Of a DNA stretch of 64,000 bases, positions 6,903-28,490 are shown piece after piece. The notes under the pieces were generated by a model, which searched no databases, had not been told where the DNA came from, and worked only from the letters and a program-made list of their open reading frames with translations. A program made the position numbers and the translations under genes. The DNA comes from Thioclava electrotropha (lineage in GTDB: Bacteria; Pseudomonadota; Alphaproteobacteria; Rhodobacterales; Rhodobacteraceae): assembly GCF_002085925.2 (NCBI RefSeq), contig NZ_CP053562.1:4110001-4174000 (forward strand). Reading direction: 5' to 3'. Numbering within the stretch: the stretch's first letter is position 1; each line of letters opens with the position of its first letter.

Positions 6903-7541
6903 TCAGGCGACGAGTTTCAGGGAACTGCGCAGCTGTGCCGCGAGGTCGTCGCGCGTCCCGTTCACGAGCCGCGCGCCGGTTTCCCGGACGATAAGCGCCG
7001 GAATAGAGCGGACCTGAAGCGCGCGGGCGCATTGCCGATCGGCTTCGACAGCTTGGGCTGTGGCCGGATCGTCGAACGCCTCTGCGAAGGCCGCCGCCTC
7101 GAAGCCGAGGCTTCGCGCGACGTCGCGCACGATGACCGGATCGGCGATGTTCCGGGCCTCGGTGAGATGCGCGCGCTGCAACCGGTCGAAGATCTCCCAA
7201 TGGGCGTCCTGCCCGCCCAGCGCCTCTGCGGCCTTGCATCCGAGCGCGGCGGTCATCCCGTGGGGATAGTCGAACGGCGCGGCTCGCATGGCCTCGATAT
7301 CGACAAGCTCTGGCCGGTCGCCGACCTCTCTGCAGACCGCCCAATGCCCGAGGATGGTCTCGCGCGCGGATCCGGGGGAGCCCCAGCGCGCAGCCATTTC
7401 GGCGCGGTCTGCCTGCAGGACGAATGTGCGATGCCGGATGTCGAGATCGAACTCGGAGGCGAGGCTGCGCATCCGCGACGAGATGTTGAAACACCAGCAG
7501 CAGACGACGTCGTGAAAGAAATCGATGGTGAGCTTGGGCAT
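6903..7541 (-). CDS. DsbA-family (FrnE-like) oxidoreductase
   Basis: A 212-residue thioredoxin-fold protein of the DsbA/FrnE/2-hydroxychromene isomerase group. The active-site region reads DVVCCWCFN, a CxxC with an extra Cys inside (C-C-W-C) where FrnE proteins usually have CPWC. The cis-Pro loop is SIPALIV near the C-terminus. No signal peptide, so it is cytosolic and likely a disulphide or glutathione-dependent redox enzyme. The ATG at 7541 overlaps the wrbA stop (TGATG) and has GAGGAGG upstream, so the in-frame GTG three bases earlier is not needed. Confidence 0.85.
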   Translation of the reverse strand: MPKLTIDFFHDVVCCWCFNISSRMRSLASEFDLDIRHRTFVLQADRAEMAARWGSPGSARETILGHWAVCREVGDRPELVDIEAMRAAPFDYPHGMTAALGCKAAEALGGQDAHWEIFDRLQRAHLTEARNIADPVIVRDVARSLGFEAAAFAEAFDDPATAQAVEADRQCARALQVRSIPALIVRETGARLVNGTRDDLAAQLRSSLKLVA

Positions 7542-15952: not shown

Positions 15953-16657
15953 GTGCAGCCTGCCTTTCGCACCGAAGCATTGTCGAAGACCTACGGCGAA
16001 GGTCCTGCCGCGGTTCACGCGCTCCGAGAGGTGACGCTGGAAATTCCGCGCAGCGAGGTCGTGGTGCTGCTGGGCCCCTCGGGCAGCGGCAAATCCACCT
16101 TTCTCAACATCATCGGCGGGCTCGACAGGCCAAGCTCGGGTCAAGCGTGGTTCGGCGATCAGAACCTGACCGAAATGTCCGACCGGGCGCTGACGCAATA
16201 TCGGCGCAGCCATGTCGGCTTCGTCTTCCAGTTCTACAACCTGATGCCCAGCCTCACCGCGCGCGAGAATGTCGATCTGGTGACCGAGATTTCGCATGAC
16301 CCGATGGATGCGGGCGAGGCGCTGCGATTGGTGGGGCTGGAGGAACGACTCGACCATTTCCCGGCGCAGATGTCAGGCGGCGAGCAGCAGCGCGTCGCCA
16401 TCGCGCGCGCCATCGCGAAGCGCCCGGCGGTGCTGTTTTGCGACGAGCCGACCGGGGCGCTCGACAGCACGACGGGGCGGCGCGTGCTGCAGGTACTCAA
16501 CGATGTGAACCGCGAGCTGGGCACCACCGTTCTGATCGTCACCCATGCGGCGGCGACGGCAGCGATGGCGCATCGCGTGCTGCATTTCACCGATGGCCAA
16601 TTGCGCGAGACGATTGTCAACGAGACCCGCGCCGATCCTGCCGAGATCGAATGGTGA
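15953..16657 (+). CDS. ABC exporter ATP-binding protein (LolD/MacB type)
   Basis: A 234-residue ABC ATPase. Walker A is GPSGSGKS, the Q-loop region is [17 protein letters not shown], signature [15 protein letters not shown], Walker [13 protein letters not shown], and the H-loop is TH. The [11 protein letters not shown] and EPTGALD patterns are typical of LolD/MacB-type ATPases that pair with FtsX-like permeases. The start is GTG at 15953 after AAGAGG. It is the first gene of a three-gene exporter with the permease 4 bases downstream. Confidence 0.92.
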
Positions 16658-16661
16658 GCCG

Positions 16662-19025
16662 ATGGCCCTGACCGTTCTCCATCGCAAGCTCTTCCGCGAC
16701 CTCTGGCGAATCCGGGCGCAGGCGCTCGCGATCTCGGCGGTCGTGGCTCTGGGCGTGATGGTGCAGGTGATGATGGCGGGGCTGACCGATACGCTCACCG
16801 TCACCCGCGACGCCTATTTCGAGCGGCACCGGCTGGCGCAGGTCTTCGAGCCGCTCACCCGCGCGCCCAGCTCGATGATGGAACAGGTCAACGCCATTCC
16901 CGGCGTGCTGGCCGCCGAAGGCCGTATCAGCGGCTTCGGCCGGATCGATGCAGACGGCGGCGAGCCGGTGCAGGCGCGCATCCTGTCGCTGCCCGGTGCG
17001 GCGGGGCTCAATGGCATCCTGATGACGGCGGGACGCAAGCCCATCGCCGGGCGCAGCGACGAGGTCGTGCTGCTCGACACGTTCGCAGCCGCACGCGGGA
17101 TCGCGCTTGGAGATACGCTCGGCGTCACCGTCGAGGGCCGCCACCAAAAACTGCAGGTCGTCGGTTTCGCCCGCGCACCGGAGTTCCTGTTCATGCCCGC
17201 GCCGGGCGAATTCTTCCCGACCGATGGCCGCTTCGCCGTGATCTGGATGGAGCGCAAGGCCGCTGCCGCCGTGCTCGATCTCGACGGCGCGTTCAACGAG
17301 GTGCTCGCGCTCACCACGCGCGAACGTCCCCGCAAGGCGGTGCTCGCCGATCTCGACCGGCTGATGGCGCCCTATGGCGGCGGCGCAGGCTATGTGCAGG
17401 ACCAGCAGACCTCGGCGCGCTTCATCGAGGAAGAACTCAAGGGCCTGCGCCAGTCGCGGGTGTTTCTGCCGCCGATCTTCCTCGCCGTTGCGGCCTTCCT
17501 GCTCAACGTCACGATCACCCGGATCGTGCAGGCCGAGCGGCGCGAGATCGGGTTGATGAAAGCCTTCGGCCATAGCGGGGCGGAGATCGCGGGGCATTAC
17601 CTAGAAATGGCGCTGATGATCGCCTTCGCCGGCGCGCTGCTCGGATCGGCCCTGGGCGTGATGCTGGGACGGTCGATCACCGGGCTCTACATGGAATTCT
17701 ACAAATTCCCCTATCTCGTCTTCTCGATGCATCCCGGCCCCTTCGCCGGGGGCCTCGCCTTCTCGCTGATCGCCGCCGCGCTCGGTGCGGCGATTGCGCT
17801 GCGCACGGTGTTCCGCCTGACGCCCGCCGAGGCGATGCGCCCGCCTAACCCGCCCGATTTCACCCATGGCCGCGTCGGCTTCCTCGCGATCGTCACGAGG
17901 GTCTTCGACCAGCCGGGACGGATGATCCTGCGCCAGATCACGCGGCAACCTGTACGCAGCCTCGGCACCGTCGCGGGCGTGGCCGCGGGCCTCGCGCTGA
18001 ACATGGCGATGCTGATGATCTATTCGGGCTTCGATCACACGATGGATGTCACCTTCGGCTTTGCCGACCGCTCCGACGCGACGGTGAGCTTCATCCACCC
18101 GGTCTCGCGCGATGTGACGCATGAGATTGCGCACCTGCCCGGCGTGCTGGAGGCCGAGCCGACGCGCTACGTGCCGGTCCTGTTCCGCAACGGCGTCATC
18201 ACCCATCGCGGCGAACTCACCGGCCTGTCCGAGGATGCGCAGCTCAACCGCGCGCTGCGCCCCGATCTGGAGCCGATCGCCTTGCCCGCGCAGGGCGTCG
18301 TGATCTCGCGGGGGCTCGCGGATGTGCTGAAACTTCAGCCGGGCGAAAACCTCACCGCCGAAGTCACCGAGGGCCGCAAGCGGACCCTCTCGCTGCCGGT
18401 CGCCGCGATCTCCGACACCCTGCTGGGCGCTCCAGCCTATATGCGCCTCGACTCGCTGACCCGGGCCGTGGGCGAGGCGGACCGGATCACCTCGGTCTCG
18501 ATCCGCACCGAGGGCGCCCCGTCGCCGGAGCTTCTGCACGAGCTGCGCGAGCGCCCCAAAGTCGCGGGCGTCTCGATCAAATCCGATAGCCTGGCAGCTT
18601 TCCGGGAAATCGCCGACGAGGGCGCGGGCCAGATGCGCTTCGTTTTCGGCGCGATCGCCTTCGTGCTGAGCTTCGGCATCGTCTACAACGCCGCGCGCAA
18701 CGCCTTTGCCGAACGCGCGCATGAATTGGCGAGCCTGCGCGTCCTTGGCTTCACCCGCGGAGAGGTGACGCTGATCCTGGCCGGGGAGATCACCCTGCTG
18801 GTCGCCTGCGCGCTCCCGGTCGGCATCTGGTTCGGCTGGACACTTGCCAAGTTGATCGCACGCGTTTTCTCCAATGAACTCTACCGGGTCAGCGTCAGCT
18901 TCGATCTGCCCAGCATCGCGACGGCGGTGCTGGTCGTGGTTTCGGCGACGCTGGCCTCGATCCTGATGTTGCGCCGCGCGCTGGATCGGTTGAACATGAT
19001 TTCGGCGCTCAAGGCGAGGGACTGA
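16662..19025 (+). CDS. FtsX-like ABC permease
   Basis: A 787-residue membrane protein with two FtsX domains. One TM near the N-terminus (LAISAVVALGVMVQVMMAGL) is followed by a periplasmic MacB-like domain, three TMs (about 270-390), a second N-terminal-type TM plus periplasmic domain (about 430-650), and three C-terminal TMs. This is the duplicated layout of large MacB/LolCE-like transporters. The start is set at 16662 after GAG; an open frame back to 16545 lies inside the ATPase gene. Works with its neighbours in efflux of a hydrophobic or peptide substrate; substrate unknown. Confidence 0.92.
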   Translation: MALTVLHRKLFRDLWRIRAQALAISAVVALGVMVQVMMAGLTDTLTVTRDAYFERHRLAQVFEPLTRAPSSMMEQVNAIPGVLAAEGRISGFGRIDADGGEPVQARILSLPGAAGLNGILMTAGRKPIAGRSDEVVLLDTFAAARGIALGDTLGVTVEGRHQKLQVVGFARAPEFLFMPAPGEFFPTDGRFAVIWMERKAAAAVLDLDGAFNEVLALTTRERPRKAVLADLDRLMAPYGGGAGYVQDQQTSARFIEEELKGLRQSRVFLPPIFLAVAAFLLNVTITRIVQAERREIGLMKAFGHSGAEIAGHYLEMALMIAFAGALLGSALGVMLGRSITGLYMEFYKFPYLVFSMHPGPFAGGLAFSLIAAALGAAIALRTVFRLTPAEAMRPPNPPDFTHGRVGFLAIVTRVFDQPGRMILRQITRQPVRSLGTVAGVAAGLALNMAMLMIYSGFDHTMDVTFGFADRSDATVSFIHPVSRDVTHEIAHLPGVLEAEPTRYVPVLFRNGVITHRGELTGLSEDAQLNRALRPDLEPIALPAQGVVISRGLADVLKLQPGENLTAEVTEGRKRTLSLPVAAISDTLLGAPAYMRLDSLTRAVGEADRITSVSIRTEGAPSPELLHELRERPKVAGVSIKSDSLAAFREIADEGAGQMRFVFGAIAFVLSFGIVYNAARNAFAERAHELASLRVLGFTRGEVTLILAGEITLLVACALPVGIWFGWTLAKLIARVFSNELYRVSVSFDLPSIATAVLVVVSATLASILMLRRALDRLNMISALKARD

Positions 19026-19028
19026 CCC

Positions 19029-20246
19029 GTGACACCAAAACCCCGGACCAGATGGCTCATTCTAATACTGATCGGCCTGATCGCGGCGGGCGCAATCGCC
19101 GCGCTGCTTTGGCCGCAGCCGCAGACCGTCGATATGGGCGAGGTCACGCGCGGCCCGATGAAGCTCGTGATCGAGGATGATGGCCGGACCCGCGTGAGCG
19201 AAAGCTATACGGTCTCGACCCCGGTCAGCGGCAGGCTGCAGCGGCTCGATATCCATGTCGGCGATCATGTCGTCGCGAATGAGACGGTCGTCGCCCGGAT
19301 GCGCCCCGCCCTGCCCGCCGTTCTGGATGCGCGCAGCCGGGCGCAGGCAGAGGCCGCGCTGGCCGAGGCCCAAGCCGCGCTGAGTGCCGCCGAGGGCGAT
19401 TACCGCGCCGCCGTCGCGATGCGCGAACAGGCCGATAGCGATCTCGCGCGGTCGCAGCGGCTCGCGCTTTCCGGCACGATCAGCCAGTCCAAGCTGGACC
19501 GCGATCAGATCAATGCCGATTACGCCGCCGCGCAGGAAGCCGCCGCGAAAGCTGCCATCGCGATGCGCGAGGCGGCGCTGGCTTCGGCGAAATCCGTGCT
19601 GCAGAACGACGCTGCCGCGAACAACAGCGACGGGGTCGAGCCGATCCCGCTTTATGCGCCCGCGACCGGAACGGTGCTGCAAATCCTGCAGGAAAACGAG
19701 ACCGTGCTCTCTGCGGGCTCCCCGATCATGGAGATCGGCGACATCTCGGAGGGACTCGAAGTCGTCGCCGATCTTCTTTCACGCGATGCGGTGCGCGTGC
19801 GCCTCGGCGATCCGGTGGAGATCACCGATTGGGGCGGGCCGGACGTGCTGGAGGGCAAGGTGGTCCGCATCGATCCATCGGGCACGACGAAGGTCTCCGC
19901 CTTGGGCGTCGAGGAGCAACGCGTCGGCGTGGTCATCGCCTTTACCGGCGACGCCGCACAGCGGGCCGGTCTGGGCCACGGCTTTCAGGTGACCGCCCGG
20001 ATCGTGGTCTGGCAGAACCCCGACGCGCTGCGCGTCCCGTCGAGCGCGCTGTTCCGGCGCGGCACCGGCTGGGCCGTCTTCAAGGTCGAGGACGGGCGCG
20101 CGCGGGAAGTGAACGTGAAAATCGGGACCGATAACGGCACCTATGCCGAGCTTCAGGACGGTCTGAGCGAGGGCGACAAGGTCGTGCTCTATCCGGTCGA
20201 GACGCTGGAAGACGGCTCGCCGGTGGAAGCGCGTTCGGGAGGGTGA
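19029..20246 (+). CDS. HlyD/MacA-type periplasmic adaptor
   Basis: A 405-residue membrane fusion protein. N-terminal TM anchor (LILILIGLIAAGAIAALLW), a biotinyl-lipoyl half-motif (VSTPVSGRLQRLDIHVGDHV), an Ala/Gln-rich coiled-coil hairpin (about 100-190), the second lipoyl half (IPLYAPATGTVLQI), and a beta-barrel domain. It would link the FtsX-type permease to an outer-membrane channel, which is not encoded here. GTG start at 19029, 3 bases after the permease stop. Confidence 0.9.
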   Translation: MTPKPRTRWLILILIGLIAAGAIAALLWPQPQTVDMGEVTRGPMKLVIEDDGRTRVSESYTVSTPVSGRLQRLDIHVGDHVVANETVVARMRPALPAVLDARSRAQAEAALAEAQAALSAAEGDYRAAVAMREQADSDLARSQRLALSGTISQSKLDRDQINADYAAAQEAAAKAAIAMREAALASAKSVLQNDAAANNSDGVEPIPLYAPATGTVLQILQENETVLSAGSPIMEIGDISEGLEVVADLLSRDAVRVRLGDPVEITDWGGPDVLEGKVVRIDPSGTTKVSALGVEEQRVGVVIAFTGDAAQRAGLGHGFQVTARIVVWQNPDALRVPSSALFRRGTGWAVFKVEDGRAREVNVKIGTDNGTYAELQDGLSEGDKVVLYPVETLEDGSPVEARSGG

Positions 20247-20459
20247 GGTGCGCCTCACGCCCCGCCCCTCCCACCTCGCGAGGAATCACGAAGCCGCGCA
20301 AAAAGCACACCAACCGATCAAAGTGGCTTGGGGCGACGCCCAAAAAACCATCACTTGAGAGTTTTTTGCGCCCAAATGCCATGCGAGCCGCAATCGAGAC
20401 GGCATTTTCCCCCTCTCCACCTTTGGAAACGCACCAAGGTCATGCCCGAATGAACCTGC

Positions 20460-20568
20460 AGGGCGCTTAGGGTTCCGTTGCCGACAAGGCAGGTCTGGTC
20501 CGAGAAGTGCCACCCACGCGGCAAATTCCGTGCGGGCACACGGCGGGCCAAAATCCCGGGAGATTACT
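20460..20568 (+). ncRNA. Guanidine-I (ykkC) riboswitch
   Basis: The DNA shows the invariant blocks of the ykkC/guanidine-I aptamer in the right order. TTAGGGTTCCG is at 20468, GGTCCGAGAAG near 20497, then a long stem (GTGCC...CACGCGG pairing with CCGTGCGGGCAC), and ACACGGCGGG (near 20537) followed by AAAATCCCGGGAGA. It differs from the common GGUCCGAGAGA by one base. It binds guanidinium and in nature controls guanidine transport and breakdown genes, exactly what follows. A hairpin at 20579-20613 may be part of the expression platform. Confidence 0.9.
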
Positions 20569-20578
20569 GCGCAGGTCT

Positions 20579-20613
20579 GACCCGCGCCTCATCTCTTGTT
20601 CCGCCAGCGGGTC
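20579..20613 (+). promoter_or_regulatory. Hairpin after the riboswitch, possible expression platform
   Basis: GACCCGC (20579-20585) can pair with GCGGGTC (20607-20613). No T-run follows, so it is not a simple intrinsic terminator; control could be translational or Rho-dependent. Confidence 0.4.
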
Positions 20614-20660
20614 GGCCTCTACGCCATATGACGGCGGGACGCATGCCAACGGGGAAGACC

Positions 20661-21728
20661 ATGACCAGAACGAAATTCCTGTCCGCCACGGCCCTCAGCT
20701 TGGGCGTTCTCGCCGCCTCTCTCTCGCCCGCGATGGCCGAGCAGAAAACCGATTTCAAACTCGCATGGTCGATCTATGCCGGCTGGATGCCCTGGGGCTA
20801 TCTGGAGAGCTCGGGGATCATGGACAAATGGGCCGAGAAATACGGCATCACCGTCGATATCGTTCAGATCAACGACTACGTGGAATCGATCAACCAATAC
20901 ACCGCAGGCGGCTTCGATGGCGTCTCAGCGACCAACATGGACACACTCTCGATCCCGTCGGGCGGCGGTGTCGATACGACCGCGCTGATCGTCGGCGACT
21001 ATTCCGACGGCAATGACGCGATCATCTCGAAGAAAGCGACCTCGATCGAGGAGCTGAAGGACACGAAGGTGAATCTCGTCGAGCTGTCGGTCTCGCATTA
21101 CCTGCTGGCACGCGCGCTCGACAAAGCCGGGCTGGCCGAGAAGGATCTGGCCGGTGTCGTGAACACCTCCGACGCCGACATGATCGCCGCCTTCGCGACC
21201 CCCGAGGTCGAGACTGTCGTGACGTGGAACCCGCTGGTGTCGGAAATTCTCGACACCAACCCCGATGCGAACAAGCTCTTCGACAGCTCGCAGATCCCGG
21301 GTGAAATCCTCGATCTGATGGTGGTGAATACCGAGACGCTCAAGGACAATCCCGATTTCGGCAAGGCCGTGGTCGGCGCCTGGTATGAGGTCATGTCGAA
21401 GATGGCCGCAGGCGACGAAGAGGCCCTGACCGCGATGGCCGAGGCTGCCGGCACCGATCTCGAAGGCTACAAGGCCCAGCTCGCCGCGACGGCGATGTTC
21501 TACGATCCGGCCAAGGCGGTCGAGCAGGCCTCGAGTGCGGAGATGCCCGAGACCATGACGACGGTCGCGAACTTCCTGTTCGACAAGGGCATCCTTGGCG
21601 TGGATGCGCCCTCGGCCGATTTCGTGGGCGTCGAATATCCCGACGGCTCGGTGACAGGCGACGAAGCCAACGTGAAGCTGCGCTTCGACACCACCTACAT
21701 GCAGATGGCGGCCGACGGCGCGCTTTGA
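20661..21728 (+). CDS. Guanidine/urea-type ABC transporter substrate-binding protein
   Basis: A 355-residue periplasmic binding protein with signal peptide (TKFLSATALSLGVLAASLSPAMA). It belongs to the NrtA/SsuA/TauA-like group annotated as putative urea ABC transporter binding protein of urea-carboxylase regions, now thought to act on guanidine. Visible landmarks are AWSIYAGWMPWGYLESSGIMDKW, GFDGVSATNMDTLS and VVTWNPLVSEIL. The start at 20661 is preceded by GGGGAAG. An earlier in-frame start (20478) lies inside the riboswitch and is rejected. First gene of the operon. Confidence 0.88.
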   Translation: MTRTKFLSATALSLGVLAASLSPAMAEQKTDFKLAWSIYAGWMPWGYLESSGIMDKWAEKYGITVDIVQINDYVESINQYTAGGFDGVSATNMDTLSIPSGGGVDTTALIVGDYSDGNDAIISKKATSIEELKDTKVNLVELSVSHYLLARALDKAGLAEKDLAGVVNTSDADMIAAFATPEVETVVTWNPLVSEILDTNPDANKLFDSSQIPGEILDLMVVNTETLKDNPDFGKAVVGAWYEVMSKMAAGDEEALTAMAEAAGTDLEGYKAQLAATAMFYDPAKAVEQASSAEMPETMTTVANFLFDKGILGVDAPSADFVGVEYPDGSVTGDEANVKLRFDTTYMQMAADGAL

Positions 21729-21736
21729 TCTGACTT

Positions 21737-21762
21737 GCCCGGCCTTCGGGCCGGGCCCTTTT
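21737..21762 (+). terminator. Intercistronic stem-loop after the binding-protein gene
   Basis: GCCCGGCC (21737-21744), TTCG tetraloop, GGCCGGGC (21749-21756), then CCCTTTT. It is probably a partial terminator or RNA stabiliser that keeps binding-protein levels above the membrane components, as in many ABC import operons. Confidence 0.75.
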
Positions 21763-21784
21763 CCGACAATTGCCGAAAGCGCCC

Positions 21785-22597
21785 ATGCGTCTGCTCAACC
21801 GACATCCGACCCGGCCCACCGGCATCCTGCTGGCCGCGCTGCCCTTCGTGGCGGTGCTGATCGCCTATTGGATCGGCTCGGAAATCCGGCTTGCGGCGAA
21901 CCCGCAGGACAAGCTGCTGCCCGCGCCCGAGACCATCATGAACACCGCCGGGCGGCTGTTCACCGAGCCGAACAAGCGCACCGGCGAAATCCTCCTCTGG
22001 GCCGATACTTTCGCGAGCCTGCGGCGTCTGGCCTTCGGTGTCGGCATCGGGGCGCTGATCTCGCTGACGGTCGGCGTCGGGATCGGGCTGCTGCCTTATG
22101 TCCGGCGCGGATTGTCGAGCTTCGTCGCGGTGCTCTCGATGGTGCCGCCGCTGGCGCTGCTGCCGATCCTGTTCATCGTGTTCGGACTGGGCGAGACCTC
22201 GAAAATCGTGCTGATCGTGATCGGCATCACACCCTTCCTGATCCGCGACCTCTCGCAGCGGGTGCTCGACATTCCGCACGAAGAGATCGTGAAGGCGCAG
22301 ACGCTGGGCGCCTCCACATGGGTCATCGCGCTGCGCGTGGTGCTGCCGCAAATCCTGCCGCGCCTGATCGCGGCCATCCGCCTGTCGCTTGGCGCCGCGT
22401 GGCTCTTCCTCATTGCCGCAGAAGCCGTCGCGGCCGAGGTCGGTCTTGGCTACCGCATCTTCCTCGTCCGGCGTTACCTCGCGATGGATATCATCCTGAC
22501 CTACGTCATCTGGATCACGCTGCTCGCCTTCCTCATCGACTTCGCGCTCAAGACGCTCTCACGCAAAGCCTTCCCGTGGCTGGGAGGTGGGCTATGA
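21785..22597 (+). CDS. ABC transporter permease (guanidine/nitrate/sulfonate type)
   Basis: A 270-residue inner-membrane permease with about six TMs. The cytoplasmic coupling motif EEIVKAQTLGASTWVIALRV is the EAA loop, and EAVAAEVGLGYRI is typical of SsuC/TauC/NrtB-type permeases. The ATG at 21785 is preferred over a TTG at 21770; the ribosome-binding site is weak. Its stop overlaps the ATPase start. Imports the ligand delivered by the upstream binding protein. Confidence 0.9.
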   Translation: MRLLNRHPTRPTGILLAALPFVAVLIAYWIGSEIRLAANPQDKLLPAPETIMNTAGRLFTEPNKRTGEILLWADTFASLRRLAFGVGIGALISLTVGVGIGLLPYVRRGLSSFVAVLSMVPPLALLPILFIVFGLGETSKIVLIVIGITPFLIRDLSQRVLDIPHEEIVKAQTLGASTWVIALRVVLPQILPRLIAAIRLSLGAAWLFLIAAEAVAAEVGLGYRIFLVRRYLAMDIILTYVIWITLLAFLIDFALKTLSRKAFPWLGGGL

Positions 22598-23385
22598 GCT
22601 TCGTCACCGTCCGCGATGTCTTCCAGGAATACGACGGTCGCCCGATCATCGAACGCGTCAATCTCGACGTGGCCGAGGGCGAGTTCGTCTCGATCGTCGG
22701 CGCCTCCGGCTGCGGCAAATCCACCTTCCTGCGGCTTCTGCTGGCCGACGAGACCCCGACGCGGGGCCGCATCACCGTCGATGGCGGCACGCCTGCGCGC
22801 GAACCGGGCCGCGAGCGCGGCGTGGTGTTTCAGAAATACTCGGTCTTCCCGCATATGACGGTGCGCGACAACATCGTCGCCGCCGAGAGTTTCCCGAAAG
22901 GCTTCGGCTGGTTTCGTGGCGCGAAGCTGCGCGAGGCCCGGGCCCGCGCCGATGAGGTTCTCGAGCGGATCGGGCTGGCCCATGTGGCGAAGAACTACCC
23001 CTCGACCCTCTCGGGCGGGATGCAGCAACGCCTCGCCATCGGGCAGGCGCTGCATGCCCGCCCGCGCATCCTGCTGCTCGACGAGCCCTTCGGCGCGCTC
23101 GATCCGGGTACGCGGCTCTCGATGCACGAATTCCTGACGCAGCTGCGCGCCGAAACCAGCATGACCGTCTTCATGGTCACGCATGATCTGGGCGAGGGCT
23201 TCAAGCTGGGCGACCGCGTTCTCGTGTTCGACAAGACCCGCTGGGATCCGGATTATCCCGAACGCTACGGCGCGACGATCACCTATGATTTCGACGCCCG
23301 CGATCACGGCATTCCGTATCAGCACATCCTCGACAAGATCCCGTCTCTGGCCGCCGCAGGCGAACCCGCACCCGCGCCGGACTGA
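22594..23385 (+). CDS. ABC transporter ATP-binding protein (guanidine/nitrate/sulfonate type)
   Basis: A 263-residue ABC ATPase: Walker A GASGCGKS, signature LSGGMQQRLAIGQAL, Walker B ILLLDEPFGALD, H-loop MVTHD. The SGGM and DEPFGALD forms match SsuB/TauB/NrtD. The C-terminal tail (WDPDYPERYGATITYDFDAR) is longer than in the sulfonate proteins and is shared by urea-carboxylase/guanidine-type ATPases. ATG overlaps the permease stop (ATGA). Confidence 0.92.
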   Translation: MSFVTVRDVFQEYDGRPIIERVNLDVAEGEFVSIVGASGCGKSTFLRLLLADETPTRGRITVDGGTPAREPGRERGVVFQKYSVFPHMTVRDNIVAAESFPKGFGWFRGAKLREARARADEVLERIGLAHVAKNYPSTLSGGMQQRLAIGQALHARPRILLLDEPFGALDPGTRLSMHEFLTQLRAETSMTVFMVTHDLGEGFKLGDRVLVFDKTRWDPDYPERYGATITYDFDARDHGIPYQHILDKIPSLAAAGEPAPAPD

Positions 23386-23398
23386 GATCAAAGTTTCA

Positions 23399-23427
23399 CC
23401 GCGCGCGCCGCTGGGCCCCGCGCGCGG
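23399..23427 (+). repeat. GC-rich intercistronic hairpin
   Basis: CCGCGCGCG (23399-23407) pairs with CGCGCGCGG (23419-23427), 11-base loop, in the 103-base gap between the ATPase and the hydrolase. It may protect or partially stop the transporter transcript. Confidence 0.5.
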
Positions 23428-23488
23428 GCCGCCGCCAAGGTCCAGACAGCCTGCCCCGATCCGGGGCTTCGATAGATTGGAGACAGAG

Positions 23489-24763
23489 ATGTTCCATGAC
23501 CTGCCAGGCGGGCGATCGCGCCCGCACCACCCGCAAGCGGCCATCGCGGCGCATGCCCTGCGCGAGCGCCGCCAGCACCACCCGGACCTGACCAAGCTCG
23601 CCGGCTGGAAGGCGATGCGCAAAGAGGCGGAACTCCCCGAGGGCCGCTGGGACGAGGAACGCCGCTGGGCGCTGCGCATGGGACTGACCGGGGCCGACAG
23701 CATCGAGGACAAGTCGATCCCGACCTTCGCACGCGGCGAGCTGCCCCATTACGCGGGCATCAACACCTTCCTGAAAGCGCCCTATGCCGAGGACGTGCTG
23801 GAGGTCTCGCATTACGACGCTACCGTCCTGGGCATCCCCTTCGACGGCGGCACCACTTACCGCGCGGGCACCCGCTTCGGGCCGCAGGGCGTGCGCAAGA
23901 TCTCCGCGCTCTACACGCCTTACAACTACGAGATCGGCGTCGACCTGCGCGAGCAGATGACGCTCTGCGATGCGGGCGACGTGTTCACCATCCCGGCGAA
24001 TATCGAGAAGAGCTTCGACCAGATCAGCCGCGCGGTCAGCCACGTCTTCTCCTCGGGCTCGCTCCCGATCATGATCGGCGGCGACCACTCGATCGGCTTT
24101 CCCTGCGTGCGCGGCATCGCCGAATGCACCTCGAAGAAGATCGGCATCGTCCATTTCGACCGCCATGCCGACATTCAGGAGAAAGACCTCGACGAGCGGA
24201 TGCACACCACGCCGTGGTTCCACTCGACCAACCTGCCCAACGTGCCCGCAAAGAACCTCGTGCAGATCGGCATCGGCGGCTGGCAGGTCCCGCGCGAGGC
24301 GGTGAAGGTCGCACGCGAGCGTGAGACCAACATCATCACCATGGGCGACATGGAGAAGATGGGCATCGACAAGACGATCGAGATGGCGCTGGAGATGGCG
24401 TGGGACGGGGTCGACATGGTCTACATGTCCTTCGATATCGACTCCATCGACTGCGGCTTCGTGCCCGGCACCGGCTGGCCCGAACCGGGCGGCTTCCTGC
24501 CGCGCGAGGCGCTGGCGCTGGCCTCGGGTATCGCCGCCGAGGGCATCTGCGGGATGGAGTTGGTCGAGGTCGCGCCGCCCTATGACGTGTCCGACATCAC
24601 CGCGTTGATGGGCACGCGGGTGATCGTGGACGTGCTGGGCTCACTGGTGGCCAATGGTAAACTCGGCGCGCATCGCAAGCATATCGACAAACCCGTCTCG
24701 CTGCCCCATGGCGAATTCGAGGGCAAGCGCTGGTCGAATTCCGAACCGCATAAGGTGGGCTGA
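23489..24763 (+). CDS. Arginase/agmatinase-family guanidine hydrolase (probable)
   Basis: A 424-residue ureohydrolase. The binuclear metal ligands are visible: H200 (MIGGDHSIG), D224/H226/D228 (HFDRHADIQ, instead of the usual DAHxD) and D316/D318 (MSFDIDSID). After them comes VPGTGWPEPGG, with Trp330 where agmatinases normally have Thr. The N-terminus is about 90 residues longer than agmatinase. Placement behind a guanidine-I riboswitch and an uptake system, with a His-rich protein next, argues for a Ni-dependent guanidine hydrolase (GdmH-like) giving urea and ammonia. GGAGACAG precedes the ATG. Agmatinase or another guanidino-acid hydrolase is the alternative. No HypA/HypB-type GhaA/GhaB genes are in the window. 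Confidence 0.85.
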   Translation: MFHDLPGGRSRPHHPQAAIAAHALRERRQHHPDLTKLAGWKAMRKEAELPEGRWDEERRWALRMGLTGADSIEDKSIPTFARGELPHYAGINTFLKAPYAEDVLEVSHYDATVLGIPFDGGTTYRAGTRFGPQGVRKISALYTPYNYEIGVDLREQMTLCDAGDVFTIPANIEKSFDQISRAVSHVFSSGSLPIMIGGDHSIGFPCVRGIAECTSKKIGIVHFDRHADIQEKDLDERMHTTPWFHSTNLPNVPAKNLVQIGIGGWQVPREAVKVARERETNIITMGDMEKMGIDKTIEMALEMAWDGVDMVYMSFDIDSIDCGFVPGTGWPEPGGFLPREALALASGIAAEGICGMELVEVAPPYDVSDITALMGTRVIVDVLGSLVANGKLGAHRKHIDKPVSLPHGEFEGKRWSNSEPHKVG

Positions 24764-24766
24764 GCC

Positions 24767-25255
24767 ATGCCGCATGATCACGCCCCCCACGGGCACCATC
24801 ACCACCACGATCACGGGCACAGTCACGGGCATTCGCACGACCACGCGCATCACGGGCATGGTCACAACCACGCCCATGGCGAGCATCTGCACAGCCACAT
24901 GCATCACGAGGACGAGGCGGCGGACCTGCAGGTTCTGGCCACCCAGTTCATCGACGGCTTCATGCAGGCCTCCGACAAGACGAGCTATCTCAAGCTCGCG
25001 GGCGTTCCCTTCGAGCGTCCTTCGTCCACGGGGCCGAAATCGCTGAAACTCGTGGATGTGGAGCTGAAGACCGAATGGCAGGTGGGCACCGCCTCGCCCT
25101 CCTTCGGCTCGCGCGAACTGTCCTACCTTCCGTTCCCGGGCGAGATGGTCCGCGAACGCACCAACATGTCGCTGATCTACGTGTCGATGGACGAGAAATC
25201 CGTCCTCGACATCCGCGACTTCCTGACACAACGCAAGAAAGAGATCGACCAATGA
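24767..25255 (+). CDS. Histidine-rich putative metal-handling protein
   Basis: A 162-residue protein. The first 47 residues contain 25 His, mostly as HG/HD/HS dipeptides, the style of nickel or zinc storage and delivery tails in HypB, UreE and SlyD. The rest (48-162) is a compact domain with LATQFIDGFMQASDKTSYLKLAGVPF, DVELKTEWQVGTASPSFGS and NMSLIYVSMDEKSVLDIRDFLTQRK. I do not recognise it as HypA, HypB or UreE, and no P-loop is present. It follows the hydrolase by 3 bases and overlaps the next gene by 4, so it is firmly in the operon. Likely supplies or buffers the metal of the hydrolase. Confidence 0.8.
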   Translation: MPHDHAPHGHHHHHDHGHSHGHSHDHAHHGHGHNHAHGEHLHSHMHHEDEAADLQVLATQFIDGFMQASDKTSYLKLAGVPFERPSSTGPKSLKLVDVELKTEWQVGTASPSFGSRELSYLPFPGEMVRERTNMSLIYVSMDEKSVLDIRDFLTQRKKEIDQ

Positions 25256-25416
25256 AGACCAGCTTCGCAACGCTTCTGGGCGCAATGGCAGCAAGCCCGG
25301 CCCTCGCGCATTCCGGCACGCATTTCCATACCCACGGTGTCGAGCCGATGCTGATCGTCGGCGTCGCCGCCCTCGCGGTCTATGGCATCGTCGAATTCGT
25401 CAGATCGCGCCGCTGA
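25252..25416 (+). CDS. 54-residue His-containing membrane peptide
   Basis: A small protein: a signal-like N-terminus (MKTSFATLLGAMAASPALA), then HSGTHFHTHG, then one TM (MLIVGVAALAVYGIVEFV) and a basic end RSRR. The His patch just after a signal sequence resembles the start of HupE/UreJ-type metal permeases, but only one TM follows. The ATG overlaps the stop of the His-rich gene (ATGA). I infer a periplasm-facing metal-binding peptide that works with the guanidine operon. Function unknown. Confidence 0.7.
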   Translation: MKTSFATLLGAMAASPALAHSGTHFHTHGVEPMLIVGVAALAVYGIVEFVRSRR

Positions 25417-25433
25417 TTTTTCGAAACGACCTT

Positions 25434-25462
25434 ACAAGGCGCCCCGACGGGCGCCTTGTTTC
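25434..25462. terminator. Strong terminator between guanidine operon and opposing operon
   Basis: ACAAGGCGCCC (25434-25444), loop CGAC, GGGCGCCTTGT (25449-25459), then TTTC. It serves the plus-strand operon and sits against the stop of the minus-strand operon, so it may act in both directions. Confidence 0.85.
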
Positions 25463-26174
25463 ACTTCGGCTCCCCCAGCCCCGCAAGCTTTCGCATATGC
25501 CAAGCCAGCGCCTGGTTCGAGCTGAGCACCGGCATCCCGAGCTCCGCTTTCAGCTCCGGCAAAATCCGCCGCGTACGCAGGTTGGTACAGGACAGGAAAA
25601 TCCCGTCCAGTTTGGCCTGCCCTGCAAGGTTTCGTGCCGCCTCGGCAATCGAGGCCGGGTCGATCCGCGCCACCCGCGCCTCCACCTCCTCACCGAAAGA
25701 CAGGGTCGCTGGAACGGTGATTCCTGCAGCGACGAAGGCCGACCGCAGAGGCTCCGCAACCGAGGCGACATAGGGCGAGACGATGCCCACGCGCTCCAGC
25801 CCGAGATCCGAAATCGCAGCCAGCGCGGCGCTCAGCGGATCGGTCACATGCCGCGTCGTGACGCCCGCCATGACATTCGCCCGTACCTCGTCCGGCCCGA
25901 TCAGCGCCGCGCCCGAGGTGCAGCCATAGCCCACCACATCGAACGTCGCCGCAGGCGGCAGCAGCGCCGCCGCGCCGCTCAACGCACGCTCCATCTCGGC
26001 GATGCTCGACGGGGTCAGATCATCGCCCGAATGGACGCGCGTGACATGCATCCGCGCGTCGTCCGGTGGGATATAGCTGCGGAATTCGTCCTCGATGGTC
26101 TCGTCCACGCGCAGCACGATCAGGCCCATCGTGGGCGTGGCGTCTTCGCGAAGGCGATAGGGGAAATCGGCCAT
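25461..26174 (-). CDS. EutA/maleate isomerase-like Asp/Glu racemase superfamily protein
   Basis: A 237-residue protein of the Asp/Glu racemase superfamily, in the maleate isomerase/arylmalonate decarboxylase/EutA branch. Two catalytic-type Cys are visible: VVGYGCTSG near residue 84 and FLSCTNLRT near 198. EutA homologues sit in ectoine-use clusters without an assigned reaction. It is the last gene of the minus-strand operon and its ATG overlaps the M24 gene stop by 1 base. It could isomerise or racemise an intermediate of the imported compound. Confidence 0.82.
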   Translation of the reverse strand: MADFPYRLREDATPTMGLIVLRVDETIEDEFRSYIPPDDARMHVTRVHSGDDLTPSSIAEMERALSGAAALLPPAATFDVVGYGCTSGAALIGPDEVRANVMAGVTTRHVTDPLSAALAAISDLGLERVGIVSPYVASVAEPLRSAFVAAGITVPATLSFGEEVEARVARIDPASIAEAARNLAGQAKLDGIFLSCTNLRTRRILPELKAELGMPVLSSNQALAWHMRKLAGLGEPK

Positions 26175-27349
26175 CAGCTCAGCTCCGGCAGGGTTTCGGG
26201 GGCGCGCGGCGACAACAGCTCCGCCCCGGTCGCGCGCAGGACGATGTTTTCCTCATGAACCAACAGGCGGCGCGGGCCATCCGCAGTCTCGACCCACGCG
26301 CCGGGCTCGAGCGTCAGCACCATGCCCTCGCGCAGTTCGGTGTCGTCGCGCGGAGTGAAGGACGGCCATTCCGTCAGCGTGATCCCCAGCCCGTGGCCCA
26401 GACGCCCACCACCCGCCGCGACACCGCGCGCCGACAGCCCTTCGACCAGCAGACGATGCGCATCATTCGCCCGCATCCCGGGCCGTAGCTGCGCCATTGC
26501 CGCCTCGGTCACCTCCCACAGCGCGGCATGGGTGCGCCGCACCGGATCGGACACCGGGCCGACCGAGAAATTGCGATCGAAGTCGCAGAAATGCCCGTCG
26601 CGCACCGCGCCGGTATCCAGCATCAGCACATCGCCCGCCTGCAGCGGCTCGGGCCCGGCAGGCGAGATCACATCGTCATAGCCCGACGGCCCCGCCGCCC
26701 CGGCGACGTAGCTGACCCAATCAGCCCCCTCCTCCAGAAGCGCCGATTGGAAGGCGCGGAAGATGCCGTCGAGCGGACGCCCCTGCCCCGCGAATTCGGG
26801 CACGCGGGCGAAAGCGCGACCCGCGATGGCGCAGGCCCTACGGATCTTCTCAATCTCGGCTGCGCTCTTGATCTCGCGCACCCGCTGAATCGCGGCGGTG
26901 CCGTCGATGAAGCGCCGCGGCGCGATACGCTCCGCGAGCCGCGCATAATCCGCGAGCGGCATCCGCAGCTGCGTCTCCAGCCCCATCGGCACCCCGATCC
27001 GCGCGCTCTCGGGCAGCAGATCGCAGAGCGTCTCGGCAAGTAGGCTCACCCCGTCATCCGTCGGATCGGGTGCCTCCCAAGTGCGAACTTGCGTCATCCA
27101 TGTGCGGCCCATCAATTCCGCCCCGATGGAGGGGATCACCGCGACCGGGTCACCACTGGCCGGGACAATCACGAACCACGGGCGCGCGGGGCTTTCCCAG
27201 AACCGGGTCAGGAAGCCCGTGACGTAGAAGATATCCGCAGCCGAGGTCAGGAACAGCACATCCAGACCCTGTGCGCTCATCTCGGCCTGAAGTCGGCTGA
27301 CGCGGGTGCGAAACTCCTCGGCCGGAAAGATGAGCGAGCGCTCAGCCAT
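26174..27349 (-). CDS. M24-family peptidase/ectoine hydrolase-like (EutD/DoeA group)
   Basis: A 391-residue creatinase/aminopeptidase P-fold enzyme. N-terminal creatinase domain to about residue 160; catalytic domain with the metal-ligand set intact: D in MLDTGAV, D in FCDFDRNF, H in GHGLGITL, E in LTLEPGAW and E in LVHEENIV. Family members include prolidases, creatinase and the ectoine hydrolase DoeA/EutD. Length and context next to an ehu-type transporter favour an amide or ring hydrolase for an ectoine-like compound. The start at 27349 overlaps the ammonia-lyase gene by 8 bases. Confidence 0.83.
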   Translation of the reverse strand: MAERSLIFPAEEFRTRVSRLQAEMSAQGLDVLFLTSAADIFYVTGFLTRFWESPARPWFVIVPASGDPVAVIPSIGAELMGRTWMTQVRTWEAPDPTDDGVSLLAETLCDLLPESARIGVPMGLETQLRMPLADYARLAERIAPRRFIDGTAAIQRVREIKSAAEIEKIRRACAIAGRAFARVPEFAGQGRPLDGIFRAFQSALLEEGADWVSYVAGAAGPSGYDDVISPAGPEPLQAGDVLMLDTGAVRDGHFCDFDRNFSVGPVSDPVRRTHAALWEVTEAAMAQLRPGMRANDAHRLLVEGLSARGVAAGGGRLGHGLGITLTEWPSFTPRDDTELREGMVLTLEPGAWVETADGPRRLLVHEENIVLRATGAELLSPRAPETLPELS

Positions 27350-28388
27350 CTTCCGGGCCTTCGCTGAGGATAGCCAGCACGTGCGCCTCGGGGCCCAGCG
27401 ACAGCCCGGCAAGCAGAGCCGCCAGCCCGGCCCCACCCGAAGGCGTCGTGGCCAGCCCGTGCGCTGCGAGGATATCGACGCCGGACTGCGCCTCGGCTTC
27501 CGTGATCGTGGCGAAGCGATCCGCATCGCGCGACAGACTCGCCAGCGCCACCATCGAGGGCGTCTTGCAATCGAGCCGTCCCATCGAGGAAACCGGCCCT
27601 TCCGTACTCACCAGATGCCCTGCGCGAATGCTCTCAATCAGCGCAGGCGCCGCATCGGGTTCGACCACGATGATCTCAGGCCCGTCGCCCCAAGCCAGCC
27701 GCGAATGGGCCGCGACGGCGGCCGCGAGACCGCCGACCCCGGCCTGCAGCAGGATATGTGTCGGCGGCACGTCGATCTGCGCAACGGCCTCCGCGGCAAG
27801 CTGAGTGTAGCCCTCCATCACCCGCAGTGGCAGGTCGACATAGCCCTCCCACGAGCTGTCCGACAGAAGCGTCCAGCCGTTCTCGGCGGCGGCCGTCTCG
27901 GCGGCCTCCATGCTCGCTTGATACTCCGCGCCAGCCCGCACGACCTCGGCCCCGCGTGCCTCCAACCGCGCGGCGAAGGCTGCGGGCACGGTCTCGGCGA
28001 GATAGATGATCGCGCGGGCCCCGAATATCCGCGCGCCTGCCGCGACCGAAAGGCCGTGGTTACCCGCGCTGGCTGCGACATAGGTCTCTCCGGCGAGGGC
28101 CGTTTGCAGGTCGCCGCCTTCGGCCCTCGCCGCCGCCTCCCGGGCGATCGCATGGACCGCGCCCAGCGCCTTGAAGCTGCCGAGCCCCATGCGCGCACGC
28201 TCGTCCTTGATCCAGACCTCGCCGACCCCGGCGCGCTCCGCAATCTCGGGCGCCGCGCGCAGTGGGGTCTCGCGATGGGCCGGACATTGGGCGAGCAGGC
28301 GGGCCACGCCCGAGGCATCCGCGATCGGCTGGATGCCTTCCGGGTCGAGCCCATCACCGCGCCAGGGATTGTCTATGATGATCGGCAT
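27342..28388 (-). CDS. Diaminopropionate ammonia-lyase-like PLP enzyme
   Basis: A 348-residue fold-type II PLP enzyme. Schiff-base lysine K73 in GLGSFKALGAVHAI, phosphate/serine motif ASAGNHGLSVA, and the segments SDSSWEGYVDLPLRVMEGYTQ and ILLQAGVGGLAAAVAAH, which are closer to diaminopropionate ammonia-lyase (DpaL) than to threonine dehydratase or EutB. It would remove amino groups from a 2,3-diamino acid or similar. About 40 residues shorter than DpaL. The start at 28388 is chosen over one at 28469. Between ehuA and the M24 gene in one operon. Confidence 0.82.
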   Translation of the reverse strand: MPIIIDNPWRGDGLDPEGIQPIADASGVARLLAQCPAHRETPLRAAPEIAERAGVGEVWIKDERARMGLGSFKALGAVHAIAREAAARAEGGDLQTALAGETYVAASAGNHGLSVAAGARIFGARAIIYLAETVPAAFAARLEARGAEVVRAGAEYQASMEAAETAAAENGWTLLSDSSWEGYVDLPLRVMEGYTQLAAEAVAQIDVPPTHILLQAGVGGLAAAVAAHSRLAWGDGPEIIVVEPDAAPALIESIRAGHLVSTEGPVSSMGRLDCKTPSMVALASLSRDADRFATITEAEAQSGVDILAAHGLATTPSGGAGLAALLAGLSLGPEAHVLAILSEGPEDG

Positions 28389-28490
28389 GTCGGACCCTCG
28401 CTGCGATGAAAGCAGGCCCATAAGGCAACGAGACGTCCGCGCACGCAATGACCTTTTCAGACAGGCCATTGCGCGACATCGTGAGGCGCG

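Follow-up and report, generated by a model that had tools for sequence, protein, structure and literature searches.

A riboswitch-controlled gene for a nickel-dependent guanidine hydrolase (gdmH), accompanied by genes for an ATP-binding cassette (ABC) importer and for nickel-delivery proteins, has been published for Synechocystis (PMC12186494), where the nickel-delivery proteins, named GhaA and GhaB, are HypA/HypB-like (PMC10094980), and Wang et al. (2021) present gdmH-type genes as often occurring in operons with hypA, hypB and importer genes (PMC8390497). The account of the Nitrospira inopinata guanidinase, an enzyme with one nickel and one manganese per subunit, reports that no chaperone was found and calls the nickel-loading mechanism unclear (PMC11410670). 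The window considered here, the whole stretch of 64,000 nucleotides from Thioclava electrotropha that was analysed (contig NZ_CP053562.1, positions 4,110,001 to 4,174,000), carries on its forward strand a single block composed of a riboswitch, the substrate-binding protein (SBP), permease and ATPase of an importer, a hydrolase, a His-rich protein (hereafter the His-tailed protein), a 54-residue peptide and a hairpin. The new element is the His-tailed protein, which takes the place expected for HypA/HypB-like chaperones and which is probably a nickel loader dedicated to GdmH.

An earlier note on this DNA had regarded the combination of import and hydrolysis without a carboxylase as a distinct arrangement, on the premise that the ykkC operons described so far rely on guanidine carboxylase or on exporters. 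The premise does not hold, and the novelty of the combination was rejected, because a riboswitch-controlled gdmH with an ABC importer had already been published for Synechocystis (PMC12186494, PMC8390497); what survives of the claim is an uncharacterised protein in the place of the HypA/HypB-like chaperones.

Linkage of the His-tailed protein to gdmH

The gene for the His-tailed protein directly follows gdmH in all 114 distinct alphaproteobacterial loci, a total that combines samples of the order (Rhodobacterales), the class and the phylum with 80 named loci, minus three shared contigs (L125/G755, L144/G682 and L173/G397) recognised by the same length and place; related sequences among them are not independent events. 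In the order, gdmH was found in 27 of 284 genomes searched and a strong match to the His-tailed protein (E ≤ 7.3e-51) in 27 of 292; these are the same 27 genomes, and the two genes are adjacent in every one. Six further, weak matches in this search (E 1e-7 to 7e-4) are chance-like, apart from a C-terminal remnant in G012, which lacks gdmH. The class sample (n = 318) contains gdmH (E ≤ 1e-100) in nine genomes and the His-tailed profile in ten, the same nine plus G415, which has a stop-containing copy and neither gdmH nor riboswitch in the 16 kb fetched. All five gdmH genomes of the phylum sample (n = 329) are alphaproteobacteria, and the two that are new carry the His-tailed gene beside gdmH. 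Pieces of the core of the protein are seen apart from gdmH at two loci, L091 (G012) near 7275 and L124 (G415) at 7091-7357.

The named loci, which are the best 80 of at least 567 confirmed when ranked by likeness to one Mesorhizobium GdmH, come from Mesorhizobium, Ancylobacter, Sinorhizobium, Bradyrhizobium, Roseibium, Thalassospira, Nisaea and others; their titles name alphaproteobacteria, one being labelled only Pseudomonadota, and this set is confined to that group. The His-tailed gene is present in 80 of 80, on the gdmH strand, ending 0.4-0.8 kb past gdmH, as judged with a profile whose training set drew in part on database relatives, possibly these very proteins among them; the class-level profile (A1) is free of this overlap. 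Five Sinorhizobium plasmid matches were kept outside the counts, and plasmid records add two Rhodobacterales gdmH loci with the His-tailed protein to the 114. The importer is present at all 27 gdmH loci of the order and undetected in 12 of the 80 named loci (the 6.5 kb upstream give no SBP, permease or ATPase match of more than 45% identity; two further loci are cut by contig ends). Because the His-tailed protein is retained in these 12 loci, it appears to be tied to the enzyme; the riboswitch lies directly 5' of gdmH in ten of them.

In the window, gdmH has neither a HypA nor a HypB relative nearby; the genome has a single HypA gene, far from gdmH and next to a HypB-like gene, in what looks by eye like a hydrogenase maturation cluster. 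Searches near gdmH gave no HypA match in any of the 80 named loci or of the other 37 loci. A HypB-like sequence is near gdmH in one named locus (26.8% identity, reverse strand), and the sole HypB-like match among the other 37 (30%, L108) is probably UreG, the locus also having urease sequence. Genome-wide, HypA exceeds the Pfam cut-off in eight of 37 gdmH genomes (nine at E ≤ 0.001) and has no match in 28. Because HypA is undetected both near gdmH and in most gdmH genomes, GdmH must, on this genomic evidence, be matured without HypA in most of these organisms.

The slot downstream of the His-tailed gene is occupied by hupE/ureJ in Mesorhizobium and its kin. HupE is a nickel uptake transporter in the description of the metformin hydrolase operon (PMC11399263). 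HupE/UreJ-like sequence was detected by tblastn in 29 of the 80 named loci, 24 times just downstream of the His-tailed gene and five times upstream of the riboswitch, and the one tested (L138) was confirmed by Pfam (E 6.9e-50). An apparent fusion of the His-tailed protein with HupE/UreJ (P0217) looks like read-through into the neighbouring gene and was counted as adjacency only. Roseibium and its relatives often have, in this slot, a peptide of 68-78 residues with a signal-peptide-like start and histidines (by eye). The 54-residue peptide of the window has a counterpart in 14 of the 27 loci of the order by eye, and in six by tblastn, the window included; it has no match to HupE (PF04955) at E ≤ 10, and a 70-residue peptide in the same slot of L190 matches PF04955 with E 0.006, below the cut-off. 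We infer a role for the slot in the entry or capture of nickel. The earlier note had proposed two dedicated metal-type proteins: the His-rich one is supported, but the small peptide is optional and does not belong to the core of the operon. Five loci (L142, L147, L149, L150 and L154) have hupE/ureJ-like sequence 5' of the riboswitch, no detectable importer, and, after the His-tailed protein, a gene that resembles 5-aminolevulinate synthase (by eye).

Sequence features of the His-tailed protein

Neither the His-tailed protein nor the 54-residue peptide matches a Pfam or NCBIfam family at E ≤ 0.001, and looser limits give no match that passes a cut-off. None of 15 members of the His-tailed family matches any Pfam family at E ≤ 1, HypA (PF01155) and HypB/cobW (PF02492) included; the family has no Protein Data Bank (PDB) match by sequence, and hhalign comparison with one HypA, at a probability of 0.5%, gave no sign of homology. 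Database searches from two starting alignments, each scoring 8000 candidates, returned 1881 and 2145 relatives, sets that may overlap. Where source names are given among the 240 relatives listed, they almost always read "hypothetical protein"; one carries a DUF2470 label, for which Pfam gives no support. Among the papers listed by literature searches there is none on the protein, a mention in a supplementary table being possible.

The family combines a conserved core of about 90 residues (invariant F61, G64, D70, L75, L95, G107, P111, Y120, P122, P124 and Y138 in window numbering) with a variable His tail, which has a single His in L109 (111 residues), five in L107 and over 30 elsewhere; ten distant members are 111-183 residues long. 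Within the tail, the N-terminus is the steadier part: all 27 proteins from the order start with MPHD and the distant members mostly with MHD or MHR, and even the His-poor L109 retains MPHD. The initiator methionine is removed before small residues, a rule that was applied to predict the mature N-terminus. On this basis the second mature residue is His in 82% of 79 proteins from the named loci (read from the first ATG), in 95% of the 37 aligned members, and in 92% and 96% of two sets of 120 database relatives, and the third is His in only 0-8% of the same four, overlapping, sets; among 15 cluster representatives, 11 (73%) have His at position 2. Because position 3 is rarely His, the histidine at position 2 is not a matter of tail composition alone. 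The first-ATG count and the database starts were chosen independently of the motif, the database sets being top-ranked matches to profiles that include this N-terminus. In HypA, the nickel site is described as requiring the N-terminal (Met1) amine and His2 (PMC5557546).

Hydrolase, importer and riboswitch

The hydrolase, placed in the arginase family by the earlier note, belongs to PF00491, and its closest PDB chains are 7ESR/7OI1 (549 bits) and 9FEK (539 bits), the guanidinases of Synechocystis and N. inopinata respectively (PMC11410670). The next chain is a guanidinobutyrase (171 bits), and chains called agmatinase, leaving aside the two guanidinases, reach at most 131 bits. The residues flagged for guanidine catalysis in N. 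inopinata are T105, H222, W313 and E344, the Thr and Trp being the two on which specificity for guanidine depends in Synechocystis (PMC11410670); T123, H239, W330 and E360 of the window hydrolase align to all four, assuming a constant chain-numbering offset of 2, with which all four letters fit. Its assignment as GdmH is safe on sequence, and activity on guanidine is predicted from it. Sequence databases label gdmH products agmatinase or agmatinase family protein.

The importer was assigned to the urea-carboxylase type by the earlier note; its SBP matches TIGR03427 (ABC_peri_uca, "putative urea ABC transporter substrate-binding protein") with 509.6 bits against a cut-off of 333.9, and its permease and ATPase match PF00528 and PF00005.

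The ykkC aptamer recognised in the same note was confirmed by a covariance-model search, in which RF00442 scored 80.4 bits (gathering score 63); this is the only Rfam match above gathering in the window, and the only match at E ≤ 10 within 20400-20680. RF00442 is found upstream of gdmH in 26 of 26 relatives of the order and in seven of ten extra loci from the class and phylum samples; a model (R1) built from 35 aptamers, three of them from contigs also among the named loci, finds the riboswitch upstream in 75 of the 80 named loci. Guanidine-I subtype 1 is marked by a conserved adenosine that is a pyrimidine in the ppGpp and PRPP subtypes (PMC6031431). By our own mapping of this marker onto the alignment, it corresponds to position 48 of the window aptamer, which is A in 35 of 35 aligned aptamers. 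The RNA is, to judge by its sequence, a guanidine-I riboswitch, with guanidine binding and control of expression predicted.

The ends of the aptamer pair in a short P0-like helix beyond the Rfam model. Across 27 leaders, 99.1% of 108 cells are paired, compared with 3-50% in slid controls, and three of the four pairs are changed on both sides; among 500 shuffles, none matched the covariation score, but five had at least as many doubly changed pairs and 96 at least as many further pair types. The longest end-to-end helix has a mean of 5.63 over 110 leaders (73 distinct), versus 5.06 with swapped partners (sd 0.13, maximum 5.38 of 300). The helix is missing in several leaders (Ancylobacter, some Sinorhizobium). 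Because the subtype-1 adenosine is retained, RNAs with the helix look like a structural variant of guanidine-I; a reading as PRPP or ppGpp aptamers is disfavoured by that adenosine and by gene context. An intrinsic terminator in the leader was considered and dropped, a TTTT run being present in only four of 27 leaders and absent from that of the window; translational or Rho control is likelier because such runs are scarce. A fold of the window leader that pairs the ribosome site with the segment right after the aptamer is no better than in shuffles (z -0.69).

Predicted role in nickel loading of GdmH

All 26 relatives with gdmH that were sampled from Rhodobacterales keep the same riboswitch and five-gene order, a conservation far from chance, and the block as a whole is very probably a guanidine-induced operon for uptake and degradation. 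Guanidine would bind the aptamer and switch the operon on; the ABC importer would bring guanidine in, GdmH would hydrolyse it to urea and ammonium, and urease encoded elsewhere in the genome would complete the breakdown of urea. This much agrees with the import and hydrolysis unit that the earlier note had proposed.

In this lineage the nickel of GdmH would most likely be loaded by the protein encoded directly after gdmH and not by HypA/HypB-like proteins. Its core may dock on GdmH, and its N-terminus, which would be Pro-His-Asp after maturation or, in distant relatives, Met-His-Asp/Arg, may bind a single Ni(II) with the terminal amine and His2 as ligands, a site that would parallel the Met-His-Glu of HypA, given the predicted removal of Met. 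The variable His tail might act as a local nickel reservoir, a role assumed for other His-rich nickel proteins. The nickel-loader reading is put forward because of the linkage to gdmH, the scarcity of HypA, the HupE/UreJ neighbours and the HypA-like His at position 2. Several traits of a nickel metallochaperone are present: the gene is linked to that of a nickel enzyme, nickel permeases are among its neighbours, and the protein has potential Ni ligands. Binding of Ni(II) and its transfer to GdmH are predicted. Beyond this, we lean slightly towards a new family of nickel metallochaperones, unrelated in sequence to HypA/HypB, that replaces GhaA/GhaB in alphaproteobacteria and whose N-terminal X-His-acidic site is convergent with that of HypA, arising in Rhodobacterales through removal of Met before Pro-His-Asp.

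Several observations weigh against nickel loading by this protein. Its core has no invariant His or Cys, and the N-terminal His is not universal: among the named loci it follows the first ATG in 65 of 80 and some ATG in 69, and is found with none in 11, some of the misses perhaps being errors of start or frame. The start codons of sets A1 and A2, including the 27 of 27 with MPHD, were picked with the N-terminal motif in view. Eight of the 37 gdmH genomes do have HypA; all 37 have urease alpha, a count within gdmH genomes that does not demonstrate enrichment, and hence possibly urease chaperones too. Over the roughly 15 kb fetched, both the His-tailed protein and HypA/B are lacking from four of four plasmid-borne loci of actinobacterial GdmH relatives, and the guanidinase of N. 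inopinata, as described, is active without known chaperones, incompletely metal-loaded when produced in E. coli (PMC11410670); because of these two cases, a loader is not obligatory for the GdmH family. One of the actinobacterial loci (L205, on a Rubrobacter indicoceani plasmid) has a guanidine-I riboswitch directly 5' of the gdmH relative; genes for a sodium:solute symporter and for urease come after it, and both HypA/B and the His-tailed protein are lacking nearby.

The persistence of the core where the His tail has nearly vanished, as in L109, and the lack of invariant His or Cys within it would suit a structural or regulatory partner of GdmH, acting in folding, hexamer stability or feedback, with its histidines incidental. 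Such a partner is unlikely, however, since L109 keeps MPHD, position 2 is enriched in His while position 3 is depleted, hupE is a neighbour and GdmH is a nickel enzyme. Storage of nickel, protecting the cell or feeding urease while GdmH is loaded by the urease or hydrogenase chaperones, is quite unlikely: it is compatible with the presence of urease in all 37 gdmH genomes and with the HypA and HypB of the window genome, but the linkage is to gdmH, which lies beside the gene in nine of the ten class-sample genomes that have the protein, and His-poor members would buffer poorly.

The mixed nickel and manganese content described for the N. inopinata guanidinase (PMC11410670) would allow delivery of another metal, such as Mn or Zn, or service to a mixed-metal site; the HupE/UreJ neighbours and the HypA-like N-terminus make this very improbable. 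That the hydrolase acts on some other guanidino compound, and that the operon is not for guanidine, is suggested by the agmatinase labels in databases and is scarcely credible in view of the margin between its guanidinase and agmatinase scores, the conserved specificity residues and the guanidine-I aptamer. Nickel loading by the His-tailed protein is the reading we retain as the more probable.

For the nickel loading of guanidine hydrolases, the His-tailed protein offers a concrete candidate where GdmH occurs without HypA/B. The candidate spans rhizobia, roseobacters and other marine bacteria and lies beside every alphaproteobacterial gdmH examined. If it is indeed a loader, co-expression should raise the activity of recombinant alphaproteobacterial GdmH, and an N-terminal nickel site would have originated independently.

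Organization of the operon and its surroundings

The features of the operon are given in Table 1. Overlaps of 4 nucleotides (nt) join the permease and ATPase genes, and the His-tailed gene and the open reading frame (ORF) of the 54-residue peptide. The closing hairpin sits between convergent genes; a 51-nt stretch containing it folds at -23.8 kcal/mol (z -4.65). The strong terminator of the earlier note is upheld as a very stable hairpin, but its T tail is short and a terminator scan did not list it.

Table 1. Predicted features of the guanidine operon, in window positions
Feature	Position	Strand	Evidence
Guanidine-I (ykkC subtype 1) riboswitch aptamer	20456..20564	+	RF00442, 80.4 bits
P0-like helix, 5' strand, outside Rfam model	20458..20461	+	GCAG/CUGC; partner 20567-20570
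P0-like helix, 3' strand	20567..20570	+	Pairing analysis; partner-swap test, 73 distinct leaders
ABC importer SBP, signal-peptide-like start	20661..21728	+	TIGR03427, 509.6 bits
ABC importer permease	21785..22597	+	PF00528
ABC importer ATPase, overlaps permease stop	22594..23385	+	PF00005
gdmH, Ni-dependent guanidine hydrolase by sequence, 424 aa	23489..24763	+	PF00491; 7ESR/7OI1, 9FEK
GdmH-associated His-tailed protein, 162 aa, candidate nickel-loading factor	24767..25255	+	gdmH linkage, 114/114 loci
54-aa peptide: signal-peptide-like start, His-containing stretch, one hydrophobic segment	25252..25416	+	ORF
Stable operon-closing hairpin, terminator-like, short T tail	25434..25459	+	Fold z -4.65

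The convergent group beyond the 3' end of the operon (25461-28469, - strand) includes an Asp/Glu racemase-like gene (EutA-like below cut-off), an M24 peptidase with a weak DoeA-like match, and an ORF resembling a PLP-dependent ammonia-lyase (by eye). Directly 5' of the riboswitch (16545-20246, + strand) are an ABC exporter-type permease (FtsX-like, by eye) and then an adaptor protein (TIGR01730 above cut-off).

Comparison with known systems

With HypA, the His-tailed protein shares the proposed nickel site of N-terminal amine and His2; it differs in having no detected sequence homology to HypA and no invariant Cys in its core. The nickel proteins UreE and HypB have His-rich tails, variable like that of the His-tailed protein. 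The metformin hydrolase operon (hypA, hypB, two ureohydrolases and hupE) resembles the window operon in joining a Ni-dependent ureohydrolase with chaperones and a HupE neighbour, whereas it is described as using HypA/HypB, a two-subunit enzyme and another substrate (PMC11399263). Operons for guanidine carboxylase under ykkC control share the guanidine riboswitch and the ABC guanidine importer (PMC12186494), but degrade guanidine through an ATP-dependent carboxylase, a deaminase and allophanate hydrolase, in place of the hydrolase of the window. The guanidinase locus of N. inopinata, in the account of its authors, shares the guanidine-I riboswitch, the GdmH-clade enzyme and the lack of known Ni chaperones nearby, but has an APC permease instead of an ABC importer and no nickel-loading protein that they found there (PMC11410670). 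The closest counterpart is the sll1077-1082 cluster of Synechocystis (gdmH, ghaA, ghaB, ABC importer and riboswitch), which as described has the same riboswitch class, an ABC importer and a Ni-dependent guanidine hydrolase; where that cluster has GhaA and GhaB, the window operon has the unrelated His-tailed protein.

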